From Actinomycetota bacterium (lineage in GTDB: Bacteria; Actinomycetota; Thermoleophilia; Solirubrobacterales; Solirubrobacteraceae): a stretch of DNA of 16,969 bases. Under the pieces are notes generated by a model, which was not told the origin of the DNA, made no database searches, and saw only the letters and a program-made list of their open reading frames with translations. Position 1 is the stretch's first letter. Each line of letters opens with the position of its first letter. The stretch lies in assembly GCA_005788585.1 (NCBI GenBank), contig SYBY01000454.1, forward strand, positions 1 through 16,969. The letters run 5' to 3'. The translations under genes were made by a program, and so were the position numbers. Below, piece after piece: positions 2-16,969 of the stretch.

Positions 2-148
2 GGCCAGGGCGACATCCACTACCGCTTCGTGCTCGACGTCCCGAAGGACCTCACCAAGGAGCAGCGCAAGGCCGTCGACGCGCTGAGCAAGGTCATGAAC
101 GGCAACCCGCGCGCGGCGCTGTTCGCGCACGAGAAGAAGGCCAGCTGA
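2..148 (+). CDS. dnaJ: DnaJ co-chaperone, C-terminal end (partial, 5' end outside window)
   Basis: The reading open at the window edge gives 48 residues ending in a stop at 146-148. The stretch [20 protein letters not shown] followed by a short helix ([11 protein letters not shown]) looks like the last beta-strand and dimerisation helix of the DnaJ C-terminal substrate-binding domain, where 'VPxxLTxEQR' is typical. DnaJ stimulates DnaK ATP hydrolysis and delivers unfolded clients in the cytoplasm. The stop overlaps the hspR start (TGATG), the arrangement expected for the dnaK-grpE-dnaJ-hspR operon of actinobacteria. The J domain and zinc finger lie outside the window, so the assignment rests on the short C-terminus plus the hspR neighbour. 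A DnaJ-like CbpA paralogue is possible. Confidence 0.85.
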
Positions 149-576
149 TGTCGACGCCGCGCCGCCGCACGACGACGCGTGTCGAGGTCTCCCACGACCG
201 CGGGGTCTTCATGATCAGCGTCGCCGCCGAACTCGCGGAGATGCACCCGCAGACGCTGCGCATGTACGAGCAGCGCGGCCTCATCGAGCCCAAGCGCTCG
301 CCGAAGGGCACGCGCCTGTACTCGCAGGCGGACGTGGAGCGCCTGCGGCGCATCCAGCAGATGACTGCCGAGCTGGGCCTGAACCTTGCGGGCGTCGAGA
401 AGGTCCTCGAGCTCGAGGAGCAGCTCGAGCGCACGCGTCGCAAGGTCGAGCAGCTGGAGGCCCGGCGCGAGGAGCTCGAGGCGGAGGTCCAGGCGCTCGA
501 GGCCCGCGCGCGCCAGGCGCGCGCGGACATCGTGCTCTACAAGGACGTCGCCGACGCGCTCAAGCCGCGCCGGTAG
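148..576 (+). CDS. hspR: HspR, MerR-family heat-shock repressor
   Basis: 142 residues. Residues 21-85 form a MerR-type winged helix with the hallmark run [20 protein letters not shown], then RGLI, GTRLYS, and [12 protein letters not shown] at about 76-87. Residues 86-126 are a Glu/Arg-rich heptad coiled coil for dimerisation, and the protein ends in KPRR as known HspR proteins do. HspR represses the dnaK operon and clpB by binding HAIR inverted repeats and uses DnaK as co-repressor (known for Streptomyces and Mycobacterium). ATG 148 overlaps the dnaJ stop, implying translational coupling. A later ATG at 211 would cut the first strand of the HTH domain, so 148 is preferred. The likely target in this window is the inverted repeat in front of clpB at 16287-16309. 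Cytoplasmic. Confidence 0.93.
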
Positions 577-3614: not shown

Positions 3615-4162
3615 GCGGGCGGACCCTCATCGCGGTGGCTGTCGCCGCCGGTGCCGTCGCGTCGTGCGGCGGCGACACCGGAGACGTCGTCGCCCCCGAC
3701 GGGCCGCTCGAGGCGGCGGCGACGGCGTTCACCGCGTCGACCGCGCTGGTCCCGGGCCGCCCCGTCAGCGCCGGGCTGTTCGTCGTCCGCCCCAGTGACG
3801 ACACAGGTGACGCGCCCATCGTGCTGGAGCGGGTGCGGCTGGCGTCGGCGAGTCCCGAGGTCCGCCTCGTCGGGGCGGTCGTCGCCGGGCCGGACCGCCC
3901 GATGGGCGCCTTCACCGCCGAGCGCCGCTGGCCGCCGTCGGTGCGGTTCACGGGCGTGGCCGCACCCGTCAAGGGCTACGCGATCCCCACGACCGAGCGA
4001 GCGCGACGGACCGGAACGCTCGTCGTGCTCGGGCTCCAGGCCGAGGACCTCGGCCGGTTCGAGGTGCGCGAGGTCCGCGTGGACTACCGCCGGGGCGACG
4101 AGCGCTTCAGCGAGCGCATGCCCATGCGCTTCTCCCTACAGGTCGACCGGAGGTACCCCTGA
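3611..4162 (+). CDS. Small lipoprotein of unknown function, second gene of the operon
   Basis: 183 residues, starting at GTG 3611 inside the stop of the preceding gene (4-nt GTGA overlap). The in-frame codons further upstream encode no signal sequence and lie wholly inside the previous gene. The N-terminus VSGRTLIAVAVAAGAVAS|C ends in a lipobox (V-A-S-C, Cys19), followed by GGD, so it is probably lipidated at Cys19 and tethered to the outer face of the membrane. The remainder is a predicted single beta-sandwich (alternating PVSAGLFVVRP, IVLERVRLA, EVRLVGAVVAG, GTLVVLGLQ, FEVREVRVDYRRG) with no catalytic motif seen. The stop at 4160-4162 overlaps the next ATG (TGATG). The context suggests a membrane-tethered partner of the two secreted operon products. 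Family not recognised. Confidence 0.78.
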   Translation: MSGRTLIAVAVAAGAVASCGGDTGDVVAPDGPLEAAATAFTASTALVPGRPVSAGLFVVRPSDDTGDAPIVLERVRLASASPEVRLVGAVVAGPDRPMGAFTAERRWPPSVRFTGVAAPVKGYAIPTTERARRTGTLVVLGLQAEDLGRFEVREVRVDYRRGDERFSERMPMRFSLQVDRRYP

Positions 4163-5778
4163 TGCTGCGACGCACCCTGATGACGCTCCTGACCGCCGGG
4201 GTCTTCCTCGTTCCGGTCCCCGCCCAGGCGGGGATCGTCGGCGTGCCTGCGTCGTCGGAGATCCCGAGCCGCAACTGCAGCTCGCCGTGCACCGGGCGCT
4301 ACACCATCAACGCGCCGAGCGCCGGCGCGGAGTTCACCGTCGACCCTGTGAGCGGGCGGCAGTTCAGCCACGGCGAAGCGGGCTGGGTCGATCTGCCGTC
4401 GGGATTCGACGAGTGGGAGTACACCGGGCGAGCGCAGGGCTACCGCGTGGTCCTCGATTTCCCGGGCAGCAACACGCGGCAGGAGTGGGGCATCGTCGTG
4501 TGCCGCCCGGCTGCGCCCTCGGAGAACCGGGTATGCGCGGGCAACGCGCCGATCGTGCCGTGGATGGGCTCGCCCGTCGCCTACGACCTGCCGACGCCGA
4601 GCATGCGCGTCCGGGCGGTGCTGCGGTACGGCGGCAGCTCCGGCAACGCGGCGGTCGCCGGGGTCATCCTGCGGGGCCGGGCCGCGTGGGTCGCGGTCGA
4701 CAACGAGGCCCCGGCGCTCAACGCGCTGCTCGCCGGCCGGCCGCTCGGGGACGGGATGGTGATCGGGGGCGGCGACGACGCCACCGGCCGGGGCGCCGAG
4801 CTGACGGTCGACGCGACCGACAACATCGGCGAGCCCGGCCTGGGTGCGCGGCTCGACAGCTCCCCGCTCGGGCTGGCAGACGGGATGGCCCGGGTGCCGG
4901 ACGGCCGCCGCACGGTCATCGCGCAGGCGTGCGACGCCAGCAGTCCGGCCAACTGCACCGAACGCGCGGCGAGAGTCACGATCGACACGGCTCGCCCCAT
5001 CGTCTCCCTGCCGCCACTCACCGCGTCGCGGGAGGAGCGTCCGGAGGTCACCGTCGAGGTCCGTGACCCGGAGACCAGCGGCTTCGCCTCGGGCATCGCG
5101 AGGTTCGCATTGCAGATCGGCGAGCAGCAGGTCGACGCCGACGTCGAGCGGGACAAGGCCGTCGCGCGGCTGCGGCCGCGCGAGCCGCTGCCCGAGGGCC
5201 GGTACCCGCTGGCGGTCCTGGCGACCGACGCCGCAGGCAACACGAACGATCCGGGCGAGGGCCGCGAGCTCGTCGCCGATCGCACGCCGCCGTCGGTCGC
5301 ACCCGCACTCCCGGTGCCGAGGACGACGGTGGTCGACCGGCCGGAGGCCGTGGTCGCGGCTGCGACCGACAACATGGGGTTCGCGTCGACGACGCTGCTG
5401 GTCGACGGCGGCGTCGTGCCTGCGGAGCTGGACGATGTCGCGGGACGGCTCGCGTGGTACCCGGACGGAGGCCTCTGCCCGGGCCGGCACACGGTCGAGG
5501 CGATCGGGACCGATCTCGCGGGACACACGGACCGCACCCGATGGTCGTTCCGGGTGCGAGGCGAGCAGACCGCCGCATGCCGGCGGCAGGCGTGCCTGCT
5601 GCGCCGTTCGGCGACGAAGCGCGCGGTCCGCGCCGTGGTCCGCGCGCGCAAGTCGCTGCGGGCCGCACGCAAGTACGGGACCCGGAAGCGGATCGTGCGC
5701 GCGAAGCGCACCCTCCGCGTCAAGAAGCGCACGCTCAGCACCGCCCGCCGCACGGAGCGGCGAGTCTGCCGTCGCTGA
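4162..5778 (+). CDS. Secreted Ig-like multidomain protein with basic cysteine-bracketed helical tail
   Basis: 538 residues. Signal peptide MLRRTLMTLLTAGVFLVPVPAQA, cut near 23. Residues 24-175 form a Cys-containing beta domain (Cys39, 43, 114, 125). About 180-275, 278-374 and 375-467 look like three bacterial Ig-like domains, each carrying an element such as VDATDN, LATDAAGNTND or IGTDLAGHTD next to xPP/xRP boundaries. Residues 470-538 are very Arg/Lys-rich, predicted helical, and bracketed by Cys473/478 and Cys536. Such basic tails recur on secreted proteins of Solirubrobacterales-type genomes (impression from memory). The tail might contact anionic wall polymers (inference). Translation is coupled to the lipoprotein gene by TGATG. 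The gene ends 9 bp before a strong hairpin and is convergent with the oxidase gene. Function unknown. Confidence 0.82.
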   Translation: MLRRTLMTLLTAGVFLVPVPAQAGIVGVPASSEIPSRNCSSPCTGRYTINAPSAGAEFTVDPVSGRQFSHGEAGWVDLPSGFDEWEYTGRAQGYRVVLDFPGSNTRQEWGIVVCRPAAPSENRVCAGNAPIVPWMGSPVAYDLPTPSMRVRAVLRYGGSSGNAAVAGVILRGRAAWVAVDNEAPALNALLAGRPLGDGMVIGGGDDATGRGAELTVDATDNIGEPGLGARLDSSPLGLADGMARVPDGRRTVIAQACDASSPANCTERAARVTIDTARPIVSLPPLTASREERPEVTVEVRDPETSGFASGIARFALQIGEQQVDADVERDKAVARLRPREPLPEGRYPLAVLATDAAGNTNDPGEGRELVADRTPPSVAPALPVPRTTVVDRPEAVVAAATDNMGFASTTLLVDGGVVPAELDDVAGRLAWYPDGGLCPGRHTVEAIGTDLAGHTDRTRWSFRVRGEQTAACRRQACLLRRSATKRAVRAVVRARKSLRAARKYGTRKRIVRAKRTLRVKKRTLSTARRTERRVCRR

Positions 5779-5836: not shown

Positions 5837-8800
5837 CTAGGCGCCGGTGGTCACGCGGACGTTCTTCACCGCGTGCCGGTTGGTCAGGCCACCGGTCGCG
5901 GCGCTGAACCCGACCAGCACCTTCGCCGGGACGGCCATGGCCTGCGTGACCGTCACCCCGCCGTCGATCACGGCGGTGACGGTCGTCGGCGTGACGGTCA
6001 CCTTCACGCGCTTCGTCGTGTTCTGCAGCGGCGTGAGCAGCGGCGTGGTGCTGACCCAGTTCAGGGTCTGCCACTCGCCCGCCTTCGCGCCGTCGCTGAT
6101 GCCGAGGCTGCTGCTCGGGTAGGTCGACATGCCGACCGCGATGCCGGGGATGCCACCGAAGCCGAGCGACCCGCCACCGCCGCCGACCGCGGTCGGGGTC
6201 GCACCCTTCGACGGGTCGGCGAGGATCATCGCGAGGCCGTCGGCACCGGTGCCATCGGCGATCGTCGCGTCGAACTCGACGGTCAGGCCCTTGGCCGTGT
6301 CGACGGCGGTCGGGTAGAACGCCGTCCCCTTCGCGTCATACGCGGCGGGCGTCAGCTGCAGCGTGTCGCTGGCGATCGAGGACGTGCCGTTCAGCTGCCA
6401 ACCGCCTGCGGCCGGGTCCGGCACCGTCGAGGCCGGCGGGTCGGTCGGCGGCGGGTCCGTGGGCGGCGGGTCGGTCGGGGGCGGCGTGGTGACGCCCCCG
6501 GAGACCACGAGGTCACGGATCTCGTGGCGGTTCGTCAGCCCGCCCGTCGAGGCGCTGAAGCCCAGCAGGACGCGGCTCGGAACCGCAACCGGCTGGGACA
6601 CGGTGGCCCCGTCGACCGTGGCGGTCATCGTGCCGCCCGAGATCGTGACCCGGACGCGGCGGGTCGTGTCCTGGAGCGGTGAGGGCAGGAGCGCCGTGCC
6701 GAGCCAGTTCAGGGTCTGCCAGGCGCCGGCCTTCGCGCCGTCGCTGATGCCGATGGTGCTCACGGGGTAGCTCGTTACGCCGACGCCCACACCGGGGATG
6801 CCGCCGAAGCCCAGCGAGCCGCCGCCGCCACCGAGCGACGTCGGCGTGGCGCCCTTCGACGGGTCGGCGAGGATCAGGGCCAGGCCGTCGGCGCCCGAAC
6901 CCCCGGCGAACGTCGCGTCGAACTCGACCGTCAGCCCGCCGCTCGTGTCGAGCGCGGTCGGGTAGAACGCGCTGCCCTTCTGGTCGGGCTGCGCCGGCGT
7001 CAGCTGCAGAGCCGAGCCGGCGATCGTCGCGACGCCGTTGAGCTGCCAGCCGCCGGCGGCGGGGCTCGGCACCGAGCTCGCCGGCGGCGGGGGCGGCGGG
7101 GTGGGCGCCTTGGACAGGGCGAGTCGGAGGGTGCTGCCGCTGCTCGGGGTCAAGACGAGGTTTCCGTCGACCGTGCCGCGCGTGAGCGTCAGCGTGGTCT
7201 CAGCGCCGGCCGCGACGGTGAACGGCGCGCCCGGGCCGGCGGTCTGTGCCCAGCCCGCGCCGGGGAGCGCGACCGACTGGATCGTCCCCGTGGCGGTGCC
7301 GGTGTTGGCGACCTTGACGGTCACCTGCTCGTCGGTCTGCCCGGTGGCGGTCAGCGCGAGCTTCGGCGCGGGCGTCGCGGCGAAGGTCGGCACGACCTCC
7401 TTGAGGTTCAGCGAGTCGGTGCGCGGCACCTGGATGCGGATGTACCGCGCGCTGCGGCCGAGCGAGACGTTGACCGTCGAGCCCACGGAGCTCGGCAGCT
7501 GCTTGGCCGTCACCCCGGCCTGGGCCCGCGTGCCGGCGACGGTGGTCGAGGTGAACGGCTGATCCGATGCGTACACCCAGGCCGAACGCAGGCGCTGGCG
7601 ATTCGTCGTCGTGTCCGTGCGGTTGTGGATCGTGATGCTCTCGACCTGACGCGAGCGGCCGAAGTCCAGCTGCCACCACGGCTCGGACTGCGACTTCGTC
7701 ACGACACCGAGGGCATTCGTGTCGCCGTCGTAGCCCTTCCACGCCGGGTACTGCGAACCGTTCTGCGAGCTCGCGGTCGCGGTCGTGTGCGGCGTGCTGT
7801 CGGCGGCCGGGTCGATGCGGACGATCGCCGCCTTCGACGGGACACCGGCGCTGTCGACCAGGAACACCATGTACGAGCCGGCCGGCGTCGTGTTGCCGTT
7901 GCTCGGCACGTCGACGGAGACCTGGTCGCCGTTGACCGACACGTCGAGCGGGACGAACGCGCTGGAGAAGTCGTACTGGTGGGTCGTCGCCGACAGGCGG
8001 ACGAGCGACGCCTTGCGGATCGACGCGGCCTGCGGGGAGCGGAACGTCATGCGCTCGCCCCACGAGGAGGACTGCGGCGCGGCCGTGATCTGCGGCCGCG
8101 GCGCGAGCTCGCCGGAGCCGTCCTTCTTGTAGAGGTACGGCGGCGAGAAGTACGCGCCGTTGTACTCGTTGGCGTTCGAGCCGTTGATCGACGTGCCCGC
8201 CGACCACACGCGGCCGTCCGGCAGGAGTGCGGCGACCGAGTGGTACTGGCGCTGGCGCGGCGTGTTCGCCATCGACGTCCACTGGCCCGTCTCAGGTGAC
8301 CAGCGCTCGGTGCCGTAGACCGGCGTGCCGTACGTCTCGCTGCCCGACGAGTTGCCGCCGATGACGATGGCCGAGCCGTCCGGCAGGGTCACGGCGGTGC
8401 CGGTGATGTGCGGGTCCTTCGTCGCGCCGGTGGCCCTCGGGACGGGGCGGCCGCCGGTGGAGACGTCGAGGAGGTACGTCTCCTTCGACGTGCCGCCGGT
8501 GATGCCGAGCATGGTGTACGGACCGACCATGGTGGCCGTCATCCGCAGACGCTGCTGGAGCAGCGTCTGGTCGTCGGCGCCGGTGAGCGTGCCGTTGCCG
8601 TTGATGTCGAGGATCTGGCGGGTCGGGTTGTTGCTCGTCCGCAGGTCGGTGACGTTCTCGATGGTGAAACGGCCGTCGGGCATCCGCAGGGCGAGCGGGT
8701 ACCAGTCGGCGCCGAAGTTGACGTTCAGCCGGCGGTTGCGCCCGGTCTCGGCATCGACGACATCCGCGCCGCTGCCGCCACGGCCGCCGAGCGCGACGAT

Positions 8801-9274
8801 GTCGCCGTTGCGGTTGATGCTCCCGCCGCCGTACCAGCGGCCCGTCGACAGGGTCGACCAGGTCCCGAAGGTCTTGGACTCCGGGTCGTAGATCTGCACG
8901 AGGTCGCTGTTGACCGTGTCGTTGCCGCCGCCGGTGATCGCGACCTTGCCGTCGGGCAGCGTCGTGATGAGCGGGCAGAAGACCGATGCCGGGGCGATGT
9001 TCGTGCTGCGGGTGATCGTGCCCGTCTCGGGATCGAGGATCATCGCCTTGCCGTTGTTCGGCGAGATCGAGTGCGGCGTCCCCGGGTCGGCCTGGTCCCA
9101 GGCCACGATCTTGCCGTCAGGCGTGACCGCAGCGGAGATCGGGACGACGGGGTAGTTCTGCACCGCGCTCCAGCGACCGGTCTGCGACGGGTCGGCGTGG
9201 GCAGCGGTGGATGACGCCAGGAAGGCGGCAGCGAGAACGGCAAGCGAGAGCCAGCGTGTGAGCACCGAGGGCAC
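5837..9274 (-). CDS. Secreted modular copper radical oxidase (galactose/glyoxal oxidase type) with F5/8C-like domain and two lectin modules
   Basis: 1145 residues from GTG 9274; GTG 9265 is an equally possible start, as neither has a good Shine-Dalgarno. Order: signal peptide 1-27; kelch propeller about 30-390; DUF1929-type E-set about 393-490; F5/8C/F-type-lectin-like domain 497-632 (PWWQLDFG, NRTD); one Ig-like spacer repeat 638-724; L-type lectin-like module 735-926; (PPPTD)x3 linker; second lectin module 951-1145. The copper radical site is complete: Cys100 (SVFCPLITTLPDG) and Tyr148 (GRWYGGG) for the Tyr-Cys cofactor, Tyr344-His345 (RQYHSVAALLPDG), and His432 (TTHQYDF). The family oxidises primary alcohols or aldehydes to give H2O2. 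Substrate here is unknown; the modules suggest a glycan. Best compared with Streptomyces GlxA and fungal glyoxal oxidase. It is a paralogue of the next gene upstream, with a terminator between, so probably transcribed separately. Confidence 0.88.
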   Translation of the reverse strand: MPSVLTRWLSLAVLAAAFLASSTAAHADPSQTGRWSAVQNYPVVPISAAVTPDGKIVAWDQADPGTPHSISPNNGKAMILDPETGTITRSTNIAPASVFCPLITTLPDGKVAITGGGNDTVNSDLVQIYDPESKTFGTWSTLSTGRWYGGGSINRNGDIVALGGRGGSGADVVDAETGRNRRLNVNFGADWYPLALRMPDGRFTIENVTDLRTSNNPTRQILDINGNGTLTGADDQTLLQQRLRMTATMVGPYTMLGITGGTSKETYLLDVSTGGRPVPRATGATKDPHITGTAVTLPDGSAIVIGGNSSGSETYGTPVYGTERWSPETGQWTSMANTPRQRQYHSVAALLPDGRVWSAGTSINGSNANEYNGAYFSPPYLYKKDGSGELAPRPQITAAPQSSSWGERMTFRSPQAASIRKASLVRLSATTHQYDFSSAFVPLDVSVNGDQVSVDVPSNGNTTPAGSYMVFLVDSAGVPSKAAIVRIDPAADSTPHTTATASSQNGSQYPAWKGYDGDTNALGVVTKSQSEPWWQLDFGRSRQVESITIHNRTDTTTNRQRLRSAWVYASDQPFTSTTVAGTRAQAGVTAKQLPSSVGSTVNVSLGRSARYIRIQVPRTDSLNLKEVVPTFAATPAPKLALTATGQTDEQVTVKVANTGTATGTIQSVALPGAGWAQTAGPGAPFTVAAGAETTLTLTRGTVDGNLVLTPSSGSTLRLALSKAPTPPPPPPASSVPSPAAGGWQLNGVATIAGSALQLTPAQPDQKGSAFYPTALDTSGGLTVEFDATFAGGSGADGLALILADPSKGATPTSLGGGGGSLGFGGIPGVGVGVTSYPVSTIGISDGAKAGAWQTLNWLGTALLPSPLQDTTRRVRVTISGGTMTATVDGATVSQPVAVPSRVLLGFSASTGGLTNRHEIRDLVVSGGVTTPPPTDPPPTDPPPTDPPASTVPDPAAGGWQLNGTSSIASDTLQLTPAAYDAKGTAFYPTAVDTAKGLTVEFDATIADGTGADGLAMILADPSKGATPTAVGGGGGSLGFGGIPGIAVGMSTYPSSSLGISDGAKAGEWQTLNWVSTTPLLTPLQNTTKRVKVTVTPTTVTAVIDGGVTVTQAMAVPAKVLVGFSAATGGLTNRHAVKNVRVTTGA
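5840..6424 (-). repeat. Lectin-module coding repeat, copy 2 of the first oxidase
   Basis: Encodes residues 951-1145: GGWQLNG at the start, FDATIADGTGADGL, GGGGGSLGFGGIPG, WQTLNW and TGGLTNRHAV at the end. It is one of five homologous modules of about 195 residues in the window (two here, two in the second oxidase, one in the lectin/FG-GAP protein). Similarity is obvious at protein level and partial at DNA level. The fold call, L-type lectin-like, rests on these motifs. Confidence 0.8.
6440..6484 (-). repeat. 15-bp tandem repeat x3 encoding the PPPTD linker
   Basis: Three successive 15-bp units encode PPPTD-PPPTD-PPPTD (residues 931-945) between the two lectin modules of the first oxidase. 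The units differ at a few positions. This is an extended, flexible Pro/Thr linker. The equivalent linker of the second oxidase is a plain poly-Pro run instead. Confidence 0.85.
6497..7072 (-). repeat. Lectin-module coding repeat, copy 1 of the first oxidase
   Basis: Encodes residues 735-926, with the same landmarks as the neighbouring copy (GGWQLNG, GSGADGL, GGGGGSLGFGGIPG, TGGLTNRHEI). It is separated from that copy by the PPPTD linker. The two copies read as an in-gene tandem duplication that has diverged. Confidence 0.8.
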
Positions 9275-9422
9275 CTATGCGATCGGGAGGTAAGGCCGTC
9301 ACACGTGCGCTGGGACGTTGCGTGCGATGGAACTTGAGAGACGCGACTGACCGGGTTGGACCCGCCGGCCGAAGCGTTACACCAGAAACGTGAACCATAC
9401 CGCTGACGCGCCGAAACACCAA

Positions 9423-9453
9423 GGACGCACGCCGCGTTGCGCGGCGAGCGTCC
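9423..9453 (-). terminator. Hairpin terminator downstream of the second oxidase gene
   Basis: Inverted repeat of 14-nt arms with one A/A mismatch and a 3-nt loop: GGACGC-a-CGCCGCG / CGCGGCG-a-GCGTCC. On the minus strand it starts 8 nt after the stop of the second oxidase. The rest of the gap, 9275-9422, should hold the promoter of the first oxidase, but I could not settle on a -35/-10 pair there. This hairpin is the reason I treat the two oxidases as separate transcription units. Confidence 0.75.
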
Positions 9454-9460
9454 AGACGGC

Positions 9461-12400
9461 TCAGCCCGAGACGGTCAGATTGCTGATCGCGTGGCGATTC
9501 GTCAGGCCGCCGGTCGAGGCCGTGAAGCCCAGCAGGACCCGCTCGGGCACGGTCGCGGCATGGGTGACGGTGAGCCCGCCGTCGATCGAGGCGGAGATCG
9601 AGGTGCGCGTCAGCGTGACCTTCACGCGCCGCGTCGTGTTCTGCAAGGGGGTGCCGAGCGCCGCGGCCGCGCGCCAGTTCAGCGTCTGCCACGCGCCGGC
9701 GAGCGCGCCATCGCTGATGCCGATGAAGTTGCCCTGGGACTGCGTGCCGTTCGGGAAGCTCGAGAGCGCGACCGCCCAGCCGGGAATCCCGCCGAAGCCG
9801 AGATGGCCGCCGCCGCCGCCGATGCTGCTGGGCGTCGCCCCGCGCGCGGGGTCGGCGAGCGCGAGCGTGAGCCCGTCTGCGCCCGAGCCGTCGGCGACCG
9901 TGGCCTCGTACTCCACGGTGATCCCGGTACCCACGGTGACGGGCGTGGGGTAGAAGGCGCTGCCCTTCTGATCCGCCGCCGCGGCGGTGAGCTGCAGCGC
10001 GCCGCCGGTGATCGTCGACGACCCGTTCAGCTGCCAGCCGCCCGCGGCCGGGTCGGGGACGGAGCTCGGCGGGGGCGGCGGAGGCGGCTCGACGATGCCG
10101 CCGCGCACGTCGACGTCGCTGATGGCGTGACGGTTCGTCAGCCCGCCGGTCGCCGCGCTGAACCCGAGCAGCAGGCGGTTCGGCAGGTCGACGGCACGGG
10201 TGATCATCGGCACGCCGTCGAGCGCCACGGTGACCGTGCCCGCAGCGATCGTCACGCGCACCGTGCGGGTGGTGTTCTGCAGCGGGGTGAGCAGCGGCGT
10301 GGTCTGCAGCCAGCTCAGCGTCTGCCACGCGCCGGCCTGCGCGCCGTTGCTGAGGCCGACGTAGTTGCCGCTCGTCTGGGTCCCGTTGGGGAAGCTGCCG
10401 AGCGCGACGGCCCAGCCGGGGATCCCGCCGAAGCCGAGATGCCCGCCGCCGCCGCCCATGCTGACCGGGGTCGCGCCGCGGGCGGGGTCGGCGAGGATCA
10501 TCGTCAGGCCGTCGGCGCCGCTGCCGGAGTCGATGGTCGCGTCGAACTCGATCGTCAGCCCCGAGGCGGTGTCGAGCGCCGTGGGCCAGAACGCGGTGCC
10601 CCGCTGGTCCGACGTCGGGGCGGTGAGCTGCAGCGCGCCGCCGGTGATCGTGGAGGAGCCGTTGAGCTGCCAGCCGCCCTCGGTCGGGTCGGGCACGGCG
10701 CTGGGCTCGGGATCCGGGTCGGGCACGGGCGCCTTCGCCAGCGCGAGGCGCAGCACACCGCCGGCCGTAGGCGTCAGCACGAGGTCCCCGTCGACGGTCC
10801 CGCGGGTGAAGGCCAGCGTCTGCTCGGCGCCGGCACCGACGGTGAAGGGCGCGCTCGGGCCGCTGACCTGTGCCCAGCCGGCACCCGGAACCGCGACCGT
10901 CTGGATGGTCCCGCCGGCGTTCCCGGTGTTGGCGACCTTGACCGTCACCTGGGTGTCGGTCTCGGCGGTCTTCGTCAGCGCGAGGTTCGCGGTGGGCGCG
11001 GGCGGTGCCTTCTCGAGCGCCAGGCGCAGGGCGGAGCCGGTGCTCGGCGTCAGGACCAGGTCGCCGTCGACCGAGCCGCGGGTGAGCGTCAGCGTGGTCT
11101 CTCCGCCCGCAGCGACGGCGAACGGCGCGGCCGGGCCGCCGACGCGCGCCCAGCCGGCACCCGGGAGGGCGACGGACTCGATCGTGCCGGTGGCGTCGCC
11201 GGTGTTCGCGACCTTGACGGTCACCTGGGTGTCCGTCTGCCCGACCTTGGTCAGTGCGAGATTCGGGGCCGGAACAGGCGGTGCCTTCTCCAGCGCGAGC
11301 CGGAGCGCCGCGCCGCTGCTCGGCGTCAGGACGAGGTCACCGTCGACCGTGCCCCGCGCCAGGGTCAGCGTGGTCTCCGCCCCGGCCGCGACGACGAACG
11401 GCGCGCTCGGGCCGCCCGTCTGCGACCACCCCGCACCCGGGAGCGTGACGGACTGGATCGTCCCGGCGCCATCGCCGGCGTTCGCGATCCGCACGCCGAT
11501 CTGCGTCGACGACTGCCAGAGCCGCGAGACCGACAGGTCGGCGACCGGGGGTGGTGGGGCCTTGTCGAGCGCCAGCCGGAGCGCCGCGCCGGTGGCGGGG
11601 GTGAGCACGAGGTCGCCGTCGACGCTGCCTCGCGCCAGCGTCAGCGTCGTCTCCGAGCCTGCGGCGACGGTGAAGGGCGCGCCGGGGCCGCCCGTCTGGC
11701 TCCAGCCGCCGCCGGGCAGGCCGACCGACGCGATCGTCCCGGGGCCCGTCCCCGTGTTCGTCACCTTCACGGTCACCTGGGTGTCGGTCTGGCCGACCTT
11801 CGCGACGCCGAGGTTCGGTGCCGCGACGGTGCCGAACTTCGGCACCACCTCGCGCAGGTTCAGGTGCTCGGGGTGCGGGAGCTGAATCCGGACGTACCGC
11901 GCCGAGCGGTTGAGGTTCACCGTCACGGTCTGCGGCTGGATCCCGGGCAGCTGGATCGCCGTCACCCCGGGCTGGGCCTGGGTCTCGGCGATCGAGGTGG
12001 ACGTGAACGGCTGGTCGGATGCGAAGACCCAGACGTTGCGCGTGCGGGACTGGAAGCGATCCGTCCGCGTGTAGATCGTGATGTTCTCGAGCGAGCGGGA
12101 GCGGCCGAAGTCGACCTGCCACCACGGCTCCTTGTCGACCAGCGTGTGGATCCCGTTGAAGTCGCCGTTCTTGCTGTTCGTCGTGTCGCCGTCGAGCGCC
12201 TTCGACGCGTTGAGGGCCCGCAGCTGGGAGCTCTGCGTCGCGATGACGTCGGGCGTCTCGTTGCTCGTCGGGTCGACGCGGATGACCGGCGCCTTCGACG
12301 GCACGCCCGCGCTGTCGGTCAGGAACAGCATGTACTGGCCGGCGGGGATCGTGTTGCCGTTCGACGGGACGGTCATGGAGACCCGGTCGCCGCTCACCGT

Positions 12401-13717
12401 GACGTCGAGCGGGACGAAGGTCTGATCGAACGAGTACTGGTGCGTGTTCGCGGCCAGCCGGATCAGCGAGGCCTTGCGGATCGATGCCGCCTCAGGCGAG
12501 CGGACGGAGAACGTCTCGCCCCATGCGACGGACTTCGGCGCGTCCTGCACCGTGGGGCGGTCGGCGAGCTGGCCTGAGCCGTCCTTCTTGAAGTGGTTCG
12601 GCGGCGTGAAGAACGCGCCGTTGTACTCGTCGACACCGCGGGCGGACGTGCCGGCGGACCACACGCGCCCGTCCGGCAGGAGCGCCGACACGGAGTGGTA
12701 CTGACGCTGGCGCGGGCTGTCCTCCATGCTCGTCCACTGGCCGGTGGCGGGCGACCACAGCTCCGGGGTCATGACCGGGATGCCGGTGGTCTCGCTGTTC
12801 GAGGCGTTGCCGCCGATCACGAGCGCGGAGCCGTCGGGCAGCGTCACCGACGTGGCCGTGATGCGCGGGAACTTCAGCGTCCCCGACGGCTTGGCGACCG
12901 GCGTTCCGCTGGAGACGTCGAGCGTGTAGCTGGTCTTCAGCGTTCCCCCGCCGATGGCGAGCATCGTGTACGGCCCGACCATCGTGCTCGTGAGCCGCAG
13001 ACGGGACTGCAGCAGCGAGCGGTCGCTGACGTTCGTCAGCGTTCCCGCGCCCGCGGAGTTCAGGATCGCGCGCTGCGGCTGCGTGGTCTGCGAGATGCTC
13101 TCGAGCGTGAACCGCCCGTCGGGCATGCGCAGGAGGTGCGGGTAGTACCAAGCGCCGAAGTTCACGCTGGACAGCCGCCGCGACACGCCGGTGGCCTTGT
13201 CGATGACGTCCGCGCCGTTCCCGCCGCGCCCGCCGAGCGCGACGATGTTGCCGGCCTTGTCGATCTGCCCGCCCGGGTACCAGCGTCCGCGCGACATCGT
13301 GCCCCACGCGCCGAAGGTCTTGGACTCGGGGTCGTAGATGACGTTGCGGTCGCTGTTGTACGTCTCGTTGCCGCCGCCCATGAGTGCGACCTTGCCGTCG
13401 GGCAGGGTGGTGATGAGCGTGCAGAAGACCGAGGTGGGCGCGAGGTTCGCGCTGCGCCCGATGACGCCGCGGTCCGGGTCGATGATCATGGCCTTGCCGT
13501 TGTTCGGTGAGAGGCCGTGCGGTACCCACGGGTCGGCCTGGTCCCACGCGACGATGTTGCCGTCGGGCATGACGGCCGCGGAGATCGGGATCGCCGGGTA
13601 CTGCTGCAGGGCACTCCATCGCCCGGTCTGGGCTGGGTCCGCCGCGGCGGCGACGGTCGCGGTGGCCGCGGTGACGGCGAGGAGGCCCGTGACGGTCGAG
13701 AGAAGTCGAGCAAGCAC
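9461..13717 (-). CDS. Secreted modular copper radical oxidase, paralogue with four spacer repeats and two lectin modules
   Basis: 1418 residues from GTG 13717. This start aligns with the paralogue and leaves a clean signal peptide (VLARLLSTVTGLLAVTAATATVAAAA). ATG 13765 falls inside the likely -10, and reading from 13924 would overlap the upstream gene. Order: kelch propeller about 28-385; E-set about 388-485; F5/8C-like 490-628 (PWWQVDFG); four Ig-like spacer repeats starting at 635, 727, 819 and 911 (exact 92-residue period); lectin module about 1008-1206; poly-Pro linker; lectin module about 1218-1418. The copper radical ligands are all present: Cys99 (SVFCTLI), Tyr147 (GRWYPGG), Tyr340-His341 (RQYHSVSALLPDG), His426 (NTHQYSF). 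Predicted extracellular alcohol/aldehyde oxidase producing H2O2. It needs copper, but no copper chaperone gene is in view. The repeat array probably works as a stalk holding the lectins away from the catalytic head (inference). Confidence 0.88.
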   Translation of the reverse strand: MLARLLSTVTGLLAVTAATATVAAAADPAQTGRWSALQQYPAIPISAAVMPDGNIVAWDQADPWVPHGLSPNNGKAMIIDPDRGVIGRSANLAPTSVFCTLITTLPDGKVALMGGGNETYNSDRNVIYDPESKTFGAWGTMSRGRWYPGGQIDKAGNIVALGGRGGNGADVIDKATGVSRRLSSVNFGAWYYPHLLRMPDGRFTLESISQTTQPQRAILNSAGAGTLTNVSDRSLLQSRLRLTSTMVGPYTMLAIGGGTLKTSYTLDVSSGTPVAKPSGTLKFPRITATSVTLPDGSALVIGGNASNSETTGIPVMTPELWSPATGQWTSMEDSPRQRQYHSVSALLPDGRVWSAGTSARGVDEYNGAFFTPPNHFKKDGSGQLADRPTVQDAPKSVAWGETFSVRSPEAASIRKASLIRLAANTHQYSFDQTFVPLDVTVSGDRVSMTVPSNGNTIPAGQYMLFLTDSAGVPSKAPVIRVDPTSNETPDVIATQSSQLRALNASKALDGDTTNSKNGDFNGIHTLVDKEPWWQVDFGRSRSLENITIYTRTDRFQSRTRNVWVFASDQPFTSTSIAETQAQPGVTAIQLPGIQPQTVTVNLNRSARYVRIQLPHPEHLNLREVVPKFGTVAAPNLGVAKVGQTDTQVTVKVTNTGTGPGTIASVGLPGGGWSQTGGPGAPFTVAAGSETTLTLARGSVDGDLVLTPATGAALRLALDKAPPPPVADLSVSRLWQSSTQIGVRIANAGDGAGTIQSVTLPGAGWSQTGGPSAPFVVAAGAETTLTLARGTVDGDLVLTPSSGAALRLALEKAPPVPAPNLALTKVGQTDTQVTVKVANTGDATGTIESVALPGAGWARVGGPAAPFAVAAGGETTLTLTRGSVDGDLVLTPSTGSALRLALEKAPPAPTANLALTKTAETDTQVTVKVANTGNAGGTIQTVAVPGAGWAQVSGPSAPFTVGAGAEQTLAFTRGTVDGDLVLTPTAGGVLRLALAKAPVPDPDPEPSAVPDPTEGGWQLNGSSTITGGALQLTAPTSDQRGTAFWPTALDTASGLTIEFDATIDSGSGADGLTMILADPARGATPVSMGGGGGHLGFGGIPGWAVALGSFPNGTQTSGNYVGLSNGAQAGAWQTLSWLQTTPLLTPLQNTTRTVRVTIAAGTVTVALDGVPMITRAVDLPNRLLLGFSAATGGLTNRHAISDVDVRGGIVEPPPPPPPSSVPDPAAGGWQLNGSSTITGGALQLTAAAADQKGSAFYPTPVTVGTGITVEYEATVADGSGADGLTLALADPARGATPSSIGGGGGHLGFGGIPGWAVALSSFPNGTQSQGNFIGISDGALAGAWQTLNWRAAAALGTPLQNTTRRVKVTLTRTSISASIDGGLTVTHAATVPERVLLGFTASTGGLTNRHAISNLTVSG
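9464..10066 (-). repeat. Lectin-module coding repeat, copy 2 of the second oxidase
   Basis: Encodes residues 1218-1418 (PDPAAGGWQLNG, DGSGADGL, GGGGGHLGFGGIPGWAVAL, FPNGTQ, TGGLTNRHAI). Within the lectin set it is closest to the neighbouring copy: both carry the GWAVAL and FPNGTQ blocks that the first oxidase lacks. That suggests duplication or gene conversion within this gene after the two oxidases diverged. Confidence 0.8.
10100..10696 (-). repeat. Lectin-module coding repeat, copy 1 of the second oxidase
   Basis: Encodes residues 1008-1206, with the same block order as copy 2 (GGWQLNGSSTITGGALQLTA shared almost word for word). It is joined to copy 2 by a poly-proline linker (PPPPPPP). Confidence 0.8.
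10727..11815 (-). repeat. Four in-frame 276-bp tandem repeats encoding Ig-like spacer domains
   Basis: Residues 635-997 of the second oxidase comprise four units with starts at 635, 727, 819 and 911, a constant 92-residue (276-bp) period with no indels. Each unit is an 87-residue domain plus a 5-residue linker. Consensus landmarks are QVTVKVxNTG, GTIxSVxLPGAGW, GGPxAPFxVAAG, ETTLTLxRG, VDGDLVLTP and LRLALxKAP. Unit 2 is the most divergent at its start (RLWQSSTQIGVRIANAG). A single copy is in the first oxidase (7104-7363) and one in the lectin/FG-GAP protein. The fold is probably a CARDB- or ASH-like beta-sandwich; the exact family is uncertain. Confidence 0.85.
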
Positions 13718-13760
13718 GGAATCTCGGACCGTAGCACCAGAAGACGGTCTTGCGAAATGA

Positions 13761-13889: not shown

Positions 13890-16169
13890 TCAGCCGGCCG
13901 TGACGACGACGTTCGACACGGCATGCCGCTGGTAGGCGCCGCCGGTCGCGGCGGTGAACATGAGCCGGGCGCGGGAGGGCAGGGCGACGGGGTGGCGCAG
14001 GCGTTCCACGCCGTCGATCGACACCACGACGGTGCCGCCGCTGCTGACGACCTTCACCCGTGTCGTGCGGCCGCGCAGTGTCACGCCCGGGTCGGCGGTC
14101 TTGGCCCAGGTCAGGCCGTTCTTGTTCGCGCCGTTCGTCAGGCCGATGAAGTTCGCCGACGGGTCGTTGCGGCCCTTCCACGTGTCGAGCGCGATCGCCG
14201 CCCCCGGGAGGCCGGCGAACCCGAGCCCGGCGCCGCCGGTGCCGAGCGCGTTCAGCATCACGCCCTGGTCGATGTCGGCGAACCCGATGGTCAGGCCCTC
14301 GGCGCCGGTCCCGTCGGTGATGGCGGCGTCGAACTCGACCGTGAGCTCGCGCGCGTCCACCGGCGTGGGGTACAGGACGGCGCCGCGTCGTGCCGGGCTT
14401 GCGGGCGTCAGCTCGCCCGGGCGTGCCAGGAGCGCGGCGTCACCCGTGGAGATCCACCGCGGGAACTCCGTCGGGTACGGCTCGGCCTCCGGCGACGGGA
14501 TTGTGGGGGTCGCGGCCAGGGAGATGCGCAGCGGCGCACCGGTGTCGCGCGTGATCACCAGGTCCCCGCTCGCGGTGCCGCGGCGCAGCGTGAGGGTCGC
14601 GCTCGCGCCCGGGGCGAGCGGGAACGGCGCATCCGGCCCGGCGGTCTTCTCCCATCCTGCGCCCGGGAGCGTCAGCGACGTGACCTCGCCGGCGCCCTGG
14701 CCGTCGTTCGTCACGCGCACCGTGACGTCGGTGTTCGTCTCGGCCGTCTTCGTCGCCGTGATCTGGCTGGGTGGTGCGGGTGTCTCGCCCGTCGCGAGCA
14801 CGATGTGCGCGGTCGCCTGCACGTTGCTGCCGGTCTTCCGATTGGAGACGGCCACGAGGTCTGCGCGTCCGTCGCCGTTGAAGTCACCGGCTGCCCCGAG
14901 GGTGATCAGGCCGAGATCGGGGAGGCCGTCGATCGTCGGCAGGGCCGTCGCGGTGGTGGCGGCGGGCGGGGTCGTGCCGGGCTGCAGGCGGATGTCGGCC
15001 GGGCTCTCGCCGGGGATGTTCGTGAACTCGAAGTCACCGCGCAGGACCGCCAGGTCCTGGCGGCCGTCGCCGGTGAAGTCTCCGGCCGGCTGGAGATCCC
15101 CCGGCCAGGGGAACCCGGCGGTGCCTCCGTCATCGAGCACCTGTGCCGGCGCGGTGAGCGGATCGATCGTGCTGGCCGTCCGGCTCCCGGGGACGATCAT
15201 CATGCGCGCGGTCCCGCGCAGCCGTCGCAGCCCGATGTCGTCGATGCCGTCGCCGGTCGTGTCGCCGATCCTGACGCCGACGAACCCGTTGTCGCTGCCA
15301 CCGGGGATCGTGATCGCCGGCTGGCTGATCGTGGCGGTGGAGATCGCGGTGGCTCCGGCGCGGCCCAGCAGGATGTGCCGGGTGCGCGCGGCGACGCTGA
15401 GGTCGTCGCGCCCGTCGCCGTTGACGTCGCCGACGGGCCGCGCCTCGTCCTCGGCGACCACGCACCTTCCGATCCCGAGGTAGTACAGCGCCGGGCAGGT
15501 CTTGGCCCCCGTCAGGCCGATGAGCCGGCTCGACGCCGTCCACGCATCGATCGCTCCGAGGCGCGTCCCGCCGCGAAGGATGACGCTGCCGGACTCCAGC
15601 AGCCGGGAGCTGCTGCGCCCGCGCCGCAGGAGGACGTCGTCGAAGCCGTCGCCGTCGAAGTCCCCGATGCCCGTATCTCCAGACACGCCAAACCCAGCCC
15701 CGGTCGCGATGGTCGTGACGCGCGGCCCGGCCGTCCGCGGAACCGCTGAGAGGTCGGGCGCGCCGTAGACGATGACGCTGGGCGTCCCGGTGACGACGAT
15801 GTCGTCGAAGCCGTCGCGATCGACATCGCCCGCCGCGGCGACATCGAGAAAGCCCGCCAGGAACCCGGCGGGCTCGGTCCTCGGGACGAAGAGCTGGATG
15901 CCCTCGCCGTTCGCCGGAGGCGTACGCCGGCCGAGGATGAGGGTCACGTTGTCGACGTTGCGGTTGTCGTTCAGGACGGTGACGTCGTCGAAGCCGTCGC
16001 CGTTGACGTCTCCGACGCCGGTGGCGCGGTCGCCGAAGTGGGTGTACGTCGACTCGAGCGGGCCGTCGACGCGCATCGCGGGCTCGAACGCCGCGGCTGC
16101 AGCCTGGTCTGCTGCGGCGGTGATCGCGATGGCACTCGCGACAAGTGCGCGGATGGCGTGGCGGCGCAT
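13890..16169 (-). CDS. Secreted FG-GAP beta-propeller protein with spacer repeat and L-type lectin module
   Basis: 759 residues from ATG 16169, chosen because GGGGGG sits 3-8 nt upstream and the signal peptide (MRRHAIRALVASAIAITAAADQAAAA) starts there. A longer reading to 16220 would run over the promoter. Seven intact calcium loops occur: DVNGDGFDD (54), DVDRDGFDD (115), DFDGDGFDD (170), DVNGDGRDD (248), DTTGDGIDD (303), DFTGDGRQD (364), DFNGDGRAD (429), i.e. one seven-bladed propeller. One Ig-like spacer (469-555) follows, then a lectin-like module (about 566-759; VEFDAAITDGTGAEGL, LGFAGLPGAAIAL, NFIGLTNG, TGGAYQRHAV). The last two modules are homologous to those of both oxidases. Cys225 and Cys236 could pair. 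There are no catalytic residues. It is likely an extracellular glycan- or Ca2+-dependent binding partner of the oxidases (inference from shared modules). Confidence 0.87.
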   Translation of the reverse strand: MRRHAIRALVASAIAITAAADQAAAAAFEPAMRVDGPLESTYTHFGDRATGVGDVNGDGFDDVTVLNDNRNVDNVTLILGRRTPPANGEGIQLFVPRTEPAGFLAGFLDVAAAGDVDRDGFDDIVVTGTPSVIVYGAPDLSAVPRTAGPRVTTIATGAGFGVSGDTGIGDFDGDGFDDVLLRRGRSSSRLLESGSVILRGGTRLGAIDAWTASSRLIGLTGAKTCPALYYLGIGRCVVAEDEARPVGDVNGDGRDDLSVAARTRHILLGRAGATAISTATISQPAITIPGGSDNGFVGVRIGDTTGDGIDDIGLRRLRGTARMMIVPGSRTASTIDPLTAPAQVLDDGGTAGFPWPGDLQPAGDFTGDGRQDLAVLRGDFEFTNIPGESPADIRLQPGTTPPAATTATALPTIDGLPDLGLITLGAAGDFNGDGRADLVAVSNRKTGSNVQATAHIVLATGETPAPPSQITATKTAETNTDVTVRVTNDGQGAGEVTSLTLPGAGWEKTAGPDAPFPLAPGASATLTLRRGTASGDLVITRDTGAPLRISLAATPTIPSPEAEPYPTEFPRWISTGDAALLARPGELTPASPARRGAVLYPTPVDARELTVEFDAAITDGTGAEGLTIGFADIDQGVMLNALGTGGAGLGFAGLPGAAIALDTWKGRNDPSANFIGLTNGANKNGLTWAKTADPGVTLRGRTTRVKVVSSGGTVVVSIDGVERLRHPVALPSRARLMFTAATGGAYQRHAVSNVVVTAG

Positions 16170-16217
16170 GGTCCCCCCCTGGACGTTGGCGGCCCGGGAC
16201 AGCGAGCCTGAGGTCAC

Positions 16218-16249
16218 CATCAGTATCAGAATGACGCGTCGTTCTGCAA
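16218..16249 (-). promoter_or_regulatory. Promoter with palindromic operator for the lectin/FG-GAP gene
   Basis: On the minus strand TTGCAG (16244-16249) and GATACT (16222-16227) are 16 nt apart. The near-perfect 20-bp palindrome CAGAATGACGCGTCGTTCTG (16227-16246; one mismatched pair) fills the space between the two hexamers, a classical repressor position. The start codon is about 52 nt downstream of the -10. Positions 16218-16240 also share 18 of 23 bases with the region at 2377-2399. Confidence 0.55.
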
Positions 16250-16275: not shown

Positions 16276-16309
16276 TTGAGAAGAAAATCTCAGTCAGCTA
16301 CACTGAGAT
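16276..16309 (+). promoter_or_regulatory. clpB promoter overlapping an HspR (HAIR-like) inverted repeat
   Basis: TTGAGA (16276-16281), a 17-nt spacer and TACACT (16299-16304) make a good vegetative promoter. A perfect inverted repeat ATCTCAGT-N7-ACTGAGAT (16287-16294/16302-16309) covers the -10 box. It keeps the N7 spacing and inner AGT/ACT of the published HAIR consensus CTTGAGT-N7-ACTCAAG but differs in the outer bases. A third half-site, TTGAG, coincides with the -35. Start of transcription would fall near 16311, only about 3 nt before the ATG, so the mRNA would be leaderless or nearly so; indeed no Shine-Dalgarno is present. Confidence 0.7.
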
Positions 16310-16313
16310 CCAT

Positions 16314-16883
16314 ATGCAGGCCGACCGTTTCACCATCAAGTCCCAGGAGGCCCTGCAGGCCGCGATCGGCCTTGCCGCCTCCCGTAACCAGCCACAGGTG
16401 CTCCCTGAGCACCTGCTCAACGTCCTCCTCGAGCAGGACGACTCCCTCGTGCCCGGGCTCCTGCGCAAGGTGGGCGTCAACACGGGTGCGCTGCGCGGAG
16501 AGGTCAACGCCGCGCTTGACGCGCTGCCCACGCTCGGGTCCCCCGAGGAGCCCACCACCGCGCCTGAGCTCATGCAGGTCCTCCGGGCCGCCGAGCACGA
16601 GATGCGCGAGCTCTCCGACGAGTACATCTCCACCGAGCACCTCCTGATCTCGCTGGCGGGTCACAACTCGAAGGCCGGCGACGCCCTGCGCGCCGCAGGC
16701 GCTCGCAAGGACGCCCTGCTCGAGGCGCTCGGCGAGCTGCGCGGCAGCCACAAGGTCACCGACCAGAACCCCGAGGACAAGGTCGGCGCGCTGGAGAAGT
16801 TCGGCCGCGACCTGACCGAGGCCGCCGAGCGCGGCGAGCTCGATCCGGTCACATGGGCGCAGCACTCGCCGTCAGCGGCGTAG
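16314..16883 (+). CDS. clpB: ClpB disaggregase, N-terminal part only (reading broken after residue 179)
   Basis: ATG 16314 begins MQADRFTIKSQEALQAA, the usual ClpB start; a longer frame to 16251 would run through the promoter. Residues 1-145 are the two Clp-N repeats (PEHLLNVLLEQDDS, STEHLLISLAGH). The linker to the first AAA+ domain follows (KVTDQNPEDKVGALEKFGRDLTEAAERGELDPV). The family continues IGRDxEIRR and then Walker A, but here identity ends at Val179 (16850). Ten unrelated residues lead to a stop at 16881-16883, giving 189 residues instead of about 850-870. Both ATPase domains are missing, so this product could not disaggregate proteins with DnaK/DnaJ. The downstream DNA is part of an unrelated gene, so the break is a junction, not a point mutation. 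Regulation by HspR is likely. Confidence 0.9.
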   Translation: MQADRFTIKSQEALQAAIGLAASRNQPQVLPEHLLNVLLEQDDSLVPGLLRKVGVNTGALRGEVNAALDALPTLGSPEEPTTAPELMQVLRAAEHEMRELSDEYISTEHLLISLAGHNSKAGDALRAAGARKDALLEALGELRGSHKVTDQNPEDKVGALEKFGRDLTEAAERGELDPVTWAQHSPSAA

Positions 16884-16969
16884 GCATGCTCACACTCATG
16901 ATCGTGCAGAGCGACGAATGGGGTTGGGTCTCACAACGCGCACTCATCGTGTTTGGCACTTCGGCACTA
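16853..16969 (+). pseudogene. Internal fragment of a DHA2 (EmrB/QacA)-type MFS transporter fused to clpB, open at window edge
   Basis: A frame different from clpB is open from 16853 to the end and encodes 39 residues: GAALAVSGVGMLTLMIVQ, then SDEWGWVSQRALIVFGTSAL. The pattern small-hydrophobic helix, then (D/E)EWGW-S-x-x-L, then another hydrophobic stretch, is characteristic of the middle of 14-TM drug-proton antiporters. Normally a Gly-Ala after an Asp-containing loop begins this helix, so the similarity starts almost exactly at the junction 16850/16851. Third-position G/C is 26 of 39 codons, clearly below clpB (about 39 of its first 44). The fragment lacks the gene's start and is not expected to be expressed as a transporter. 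The assignment is from a short sequence. Confidence 0.6.

Follow-up and report, generated by a model that had tools for sequence, protein, structure and literature searches.

The characterised enzymes closest to the proteins described here are the galactose oxidases of Pseudarthrobacter siccitolerans (PDB 9g43) and Fusarium (1gof), which are nearest in both fold and sequence and have like ligands and a like E-set lid, but differ in having a stacking residue of the W290 type and no lectin tail. In the Fusarium enzyme a galactose-binding module is N-terminal, according to PMC12355970. The aldehyde oxidase of Fusarium graminearum (FgrAldOx; AA5_1, 9n3u) carries N-terminal WSC modules and no F5/8C-Ig-lectin tail, and Streptomyces GlxA (4unm) has no tail modules. 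Here we describe two tandem genes on the minus strand of contig SYBY01000454.1 from an Actinomycetota bacterium, within positions 5837..13717 of the 16,969-nucleotide stretch that was analysed (the window), which encode the predicted exported copper radical oxidases CRO1 (1145 residues) and CRO2 (1418 residues). Their coordinates, strand and lengths are as originally predicted, and so is the architecture of their tails, in which an E-set and an F5/8C domain are followed by Ig-like spacers and then by two L-type lectin-fold modules. CRO1 has one such spacer and CRO2 has four. The F5/8C domain thus lies C-terminal to the head, whereas the module of the Fusarium galactose oxidase is N-terminal. 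PF09118, PF00754, PF22633 and PF18483 (two stretches each) score above their Pfam cut-offs in both proteins, whose parts are as follows.

9194..9274, minus: CRO1 signal-peptide-like N-terminus, residues 1-27 (translation, by eye)
7805..9193, minus: CRO1 copper-radical-oxidase head and E-set, residues 28-490
7421..7780, minus: CRO1 F5/8C domain, residues 499-618 (PF00754, 40.0 bits, cut-off 28.2)
7118..7375, minus: CRO1 Ig-like (choice-of-anchor-like) spacer, residues 634-719
6494..7063, minus: CRO1 L-type lectin-fold module a, residues 738-927
5843..6415, minus: CRO1 L-type lectin-fold module b, residues 954-1144
13640..13717, minus: CRO2 signal-peptide-like N-terminus, residues 1-26, GTG start (by eye)
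12275..13639, minus: CRO2 copper-radical-oxidase head and E-set, residues 27-481 (Pfam; PDB sequence match 9g8h, 3.5e-46)
11873..12241, minus: CRO2 F5/8C domain, residues 493-615 (PF00754, 37.5 bits, cut-off 28.2)
10742..11827, minus: CRO2 four Ig-like spacers, residues 631-992, including direct repeats of 276 bases
10097..10687, minus: CRO2 L-type lectin-fold module a, residues 1011-1207
9464..10051, minus: CRO2 L-type lectin-fold module b, residues 1223-1418

A longer frame for CRO2 would start from an upstream ATG at 13924; the GTG at 13717 opens the stretch that looks by eye like a signal peptide. The source actinobacterium is close to Svornostia abyssi, which NCBI places in the Solirubrobacterales, Baekduiaceae: CRO2 shares 93% identity with a protein from a Solirubrobacteraceae metagenome-assembled genome (MAG) and 85% with one from S. 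abyssi.

Oxidase heads and their probable substrate class

The copper-radical ligands were found at all ten positions proposed for them, namely C100, Y148, Y344-H345 and H432 in CRO1 and C99, Y147, Y340-H341 and H426 in CRO2. In an alignment of 62 rows, which includes the window's own two proteins, the second tyrosine and both histidines are present in 62/62 rows and the cysteine and first tyrosine in 60/60, the two remaining rows being gapped there, a degree of conservation beyond what chance would give. The propeller and E-set fold of the AA5 copper radical oxidases is seen in both sequence and model, and structural superposition gave a strong fold match. Sequence and model together support the assignment of the heads to AA5-type copper radical oxidases, with the five ligands at aligned positions, and the sequences support the predicted export of the heads and the paralogy of the pair.

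The residues around the cofactor suggest a substrate class. In galactose oxidase the Cys-Tyr cofactor has a tryptophan, W290, stacked on it, and the galactose 6-oxidases are marked by the pair W290/R330, as described in PMC11267884. The corresponding tryptophan of FgrAldOx is W509, immediately before the cross-link Tyr510, while the second-shell tryptophan of GlxA, W288, lies in a different place from that of the CRO proteins (both from PMC13094651). A tryptophan (Trp147 in CRO1) immediately precedes the cross-link tyrosine in 60/60 of our aligned rows, as in FgrAldOx, and W290 of the bacterial galactose oxidase aligns to a gap beside an arginine in the CRO heads. The R330 position is occupied by methionine in CRO2 and by threonine in CRO1, a weak point, as the alignments differ in register; neither protein has the W290/R330 pair of the AA5_2 galactose 6-oxidases. 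Because W290 is absent and a tryptophan stands directly before the cross-link tyrosine, an aldehyde oxidase would seem likelier than a galactose oxidase. The original prediction, that the substrate may differ from that of GlxA, can in this way be made more specific: the second-shell tryptophan is placed as in the AA5_1 aldehyde oxidase, unlike in galactose oxidase.

With moderate confidence we therefore favour the reading, drawn from sequence and model, which takes CRO1 and CRO2 for exported copper radical oxidases of the AA5 type that prefer aldehydes and are held by their tails at the surface or in the matrix of the producer. After export, the head would bind one copper and form the Cys-Tyr cross-link, and would then use O2 to oxidise primary alcohols or the hydrated forms of small aldehydes, with H2O2 as a product. 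Aldehydes would be favoured over galactose by the second-shell tryptophan arrangement and the missing W290, and the F5/8C domain, the spacers and the two lectin-fold modules would anchor the enzyme to the surface or matrix of the producing cell. The paralogues, with their distinct conserved promoter-like elements, may serve under different conditions.

Two results weigh against an aldehyde oxidase of this kind. The nearest solved structure to the heads is a galactose oxidase, that of P. siccitolerans, which is also their best match in sequence, and the AA5_1 family PF07250 (glyoxal oxidase N-terminus) scored under its cut-off of 37.5 bits in both CRO1 (25.3) and CRO2 (21.9). A short head stretch compared with PDB sequences retrieved mostly kelch proteins, the AA5_1 enzyme not being among the matches, and identity to 9n3u is low, at 24% in the structural alignment. 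With PF07250 below its cut-off and a galactose oxidase as the closest structure, we therefore claim only an AA5_1-like active site and not membership of AA5_1.

The same structural match would suit a galactose- or alcohol-oxidising enzyme of the AA5_2 type, with the F5/8C domain locating galactosides, and that domain does resemble galactose-binding modules (PF22633); with the W290 position absent and the tryptophan shifted to just before the cross-link tyrosine, however, we consider such an enzyme unlikely. An oxidase of the GlxA type, depositing glycan at the envelope with a cellulose-synthase-like partner, is quite improbable, as the GlxA model NF052501 of NCBIfam gives 135.1 and 134.8 against a cut-off of 800, and no cellulose-synthase-like family appeared among the seven window proteins scanned, related genomes not having been searched for one.

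A lectin-fold tail with an altered metal site

The most surprising point is that the lectin tail appears to be metal-free. In both family score and fold the tail modules are those of L-type lectins, but the known members (7elv from Methanocaldococcus jannaschii, and the legume lectins) have a metal-site glutamate and aspartate, the residues being those listed in PMC12355970. From the Glu-x-Asp of this Ca/Mn site the glutamate is missing, like the aspartate, in 22/22 modules (13 proteins of the oxidase clade), and the loop is shortened in CRO1. On other heads the aspartate is retained in 212/275 modules, those of P0129 being examples. Docking of the tails on a glycan would be plausible, though with the metal site lost the contacts need not be made through a classical Ca/Mn-dependent sugar site.

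It had been supposed that characterised bacterial members lack such a tail; this stands for GlxA, but 18 bacterial AA5 proteins among the matches listed (others or the same) carry the same modules. The best 120 of 239 matches to the CRO1 tail are mostly without AA5 families in precomputed lists, and among seven proteins scanned one has a glucose/sorbosone-dehydrogenase head (P0121) and one a PQQ-type propeller match (P0129). For a tree of the heads, 113 of the 125 proteins with a head match passed a length filter, and 73 were used, the window's own P0001 and P0007 being replaced by the window rows. The lectin label, borne by 18/73 rows, falls into three groups, a TIG clade, the CRO1 clade and the CRO2 pair; P0014, as to its label, may be cut by a short contig. 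The view that AA5 heads acquired the lectin tail only once was rejected, since the label requires three changes on this tree and three are forced by well-supported branches; one gain followed by many losses is a possible alternative. The CRO1 and CRO2 heads lie in different clades, so the duplication predates the species compared, and the nearest relatives of CRO2 (P0010, P0011 and P0016) have a head and an F5/8C domain with no lectin family in the family scan.

A broader and more doubtful idea is that the Solirubrobacterales possess a surface kit in which radical oxidase, FG-GAP, sugar-dehydrogenase-like and PQQ-like propellers share one interchangeable L-type lectin-fold tail, its metal site stripped on the oxidase side. 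H2O2-making aldehyde oxidases and structural propellers might thus be parked on the same target by metal-free modules, the AA5 fusion having arisen more than once.

The hspR-clpB neighbourhood

The surroundings of the two genes contain the following features.

148..576, plus: MerR-family gene (MerR families by Pfam), which we take to be hspR
9394..9422, minus: promoter-like element upstream of CRO1, TTGGTR-N17..18-TATGGT
13728..13756, minus: promoter-like element upstream of CRO2, TTCGCM-N17-TACGGT
13890..16220, minus: exported FG-GAP propeller protein upstream of CRO2, with one spacer and one lectin-fold module (PF18483, 39.7 bits, under the cut-off of 78.3)
16287..16309, no strand: inverted repeat TCTCAGT-N7-ACTGAGA, heat-shock-operator-like, upstream of clpB
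16314..16969, plus: start of clpB, truncated by the window end (Clp_N, 77.7 bits over 16314-16865)

FG-GAP propeller exported proteins stand on both sides of the array, at 586-2352 and 13890-16220, and the lectin-fold module of the latter retains the metal-site aspartate. Convergent to CRO1, 4162-5778 encodes an exported Ig-like protein with a very basic, Arg/Lys-rich C-terminal tail. The clpB frame breaks near the window end (16865-16969), probably through an assembly-end error.

In the window and in three related loci (L001, L002 and L003, of genomes G001-G003) the array sits between hspR and clpB, with the repeat upstream of clpB in all four. Exact or with one mismatch, the repeat also precedes groES-groEL and lon in G001-G003 (L117, L121, L123, L122 and L124, the lon of L122 being assigned by likeness to L124); one one-mismatch site (G002, L125) adjoins no recognised heat-shock gene. 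The backward control pattern gave 0 matches in all three genomes. The repeat resembles the HAIR operator of HspR, and it is likely to be a heat-shock operator in this clade. Such an operator is known upstream of Streptomyces clpB, according to PMC6102357.

That the oxidases belong to the heat-shock response, with HspR switching them along with clpB, would be the most attractive reading of this neighbourhood, given the position of the array at four loci and the repeat's further sites. It is weakened by the promoter-like elements of CRO1 and CRO2, each conserved and present once each in the window, L001, L002 and L003 (the CRO2 type also occurs once elsewhere, at L059, other matches falling at these sites again, in loci that overlap); shared control with clpB therefore lacks support. 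G001 has a third head on a separate contig, and unrelated genes fill hspR-clpB gaps elsewhere, so that we hold a heat-shock role to be rather improbable.

Among the matches listed for 232 genomes of the order, transcribed by hand, 95 hspR-clpB pairs share a contig (genomes in which the two are on separate contigs are not counted, G118 and G119 appear twice, and three pairs are those of the array-bearing G001-G003). Of these pairs, 42 are separated by no more than 330 bases, 6 by 331-999 bases, 23 by 1-5 kb and 24 by at least 5 kb, so that 42/95 pairs are near-adjacent and 47/95 at least 1 kb apart. Twenty such stretches from 19 other genomes, with gaps above about 2.7 kb, hold mixed genes with no common theme by eye, and 7/20 contain the heat-shock-type repeat. 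A dedicated cargo site was rejected on these gap sizes and contents, which point instead to a variable interval.

Conservation and significance

PF09118 is present in 46/232 genomes of the order, and head matches at E 1e-30 in 17/232. Heads at least 65% identical occur only in G001-G003, identity elsewhere being at most 46%; in the plasmid collection, with 24 matching records, it is at most 34% among the matches listed. Against L001, the nearest MAG locus, the ratio of nonsynonymous to synonymous substitution rates (dN/dS) is 0.105 for the whole of CRO1 (tail 0.130) and 0.168 for CRO2 (head 0.161, tail 0.148). Inactive propellers retained as adhesins or matrix proteins might be imagined, as non-enzymatic FG-GAP and other propellers bear the same tail modules, but are very unlikely when the five ligands and the second-shell tryptophan are kept throughout and dN/dS for the CRO1 head is 0.035.

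In the complete genome of S. abyssi (L002, CP088295.1) the CRO2 counterpart is split into pieces in different frames and that of CRO1 is likewise in pieces, the last with three stops; decay or sequencing error may explain the interruption of both copies. L003 (CAMCUD010000004.1) is titled Bifidobacterium breve, yet it closely matches the Solirubrobacterales array, with the same hspR/clpB order, and is probably a mislabelled MAG.

CRO1 and CRO2 are confirmed as a well-conserved pair of AA5-type oxidases with an uncommon architecture, of which we found no account among the open-licence papers searched by listing, nor any on S. abyssi. As enzymes the two look familiar in type; what is unusual is the tail and its altered binding site. 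With the tail it could be tested whether glycans are still bound by an L-type lectin fold that has lost its metal site, and how an H2O2-making oxidase stays near its target. Should the heads prove to be aldehyde oxidases, the placing of Trp before Tyr in the one fungal AA5_1 enzyme of solved structure would hold for many uncharacterised bacterial proteins as well, and would become a testable sequence rule for substrate class.
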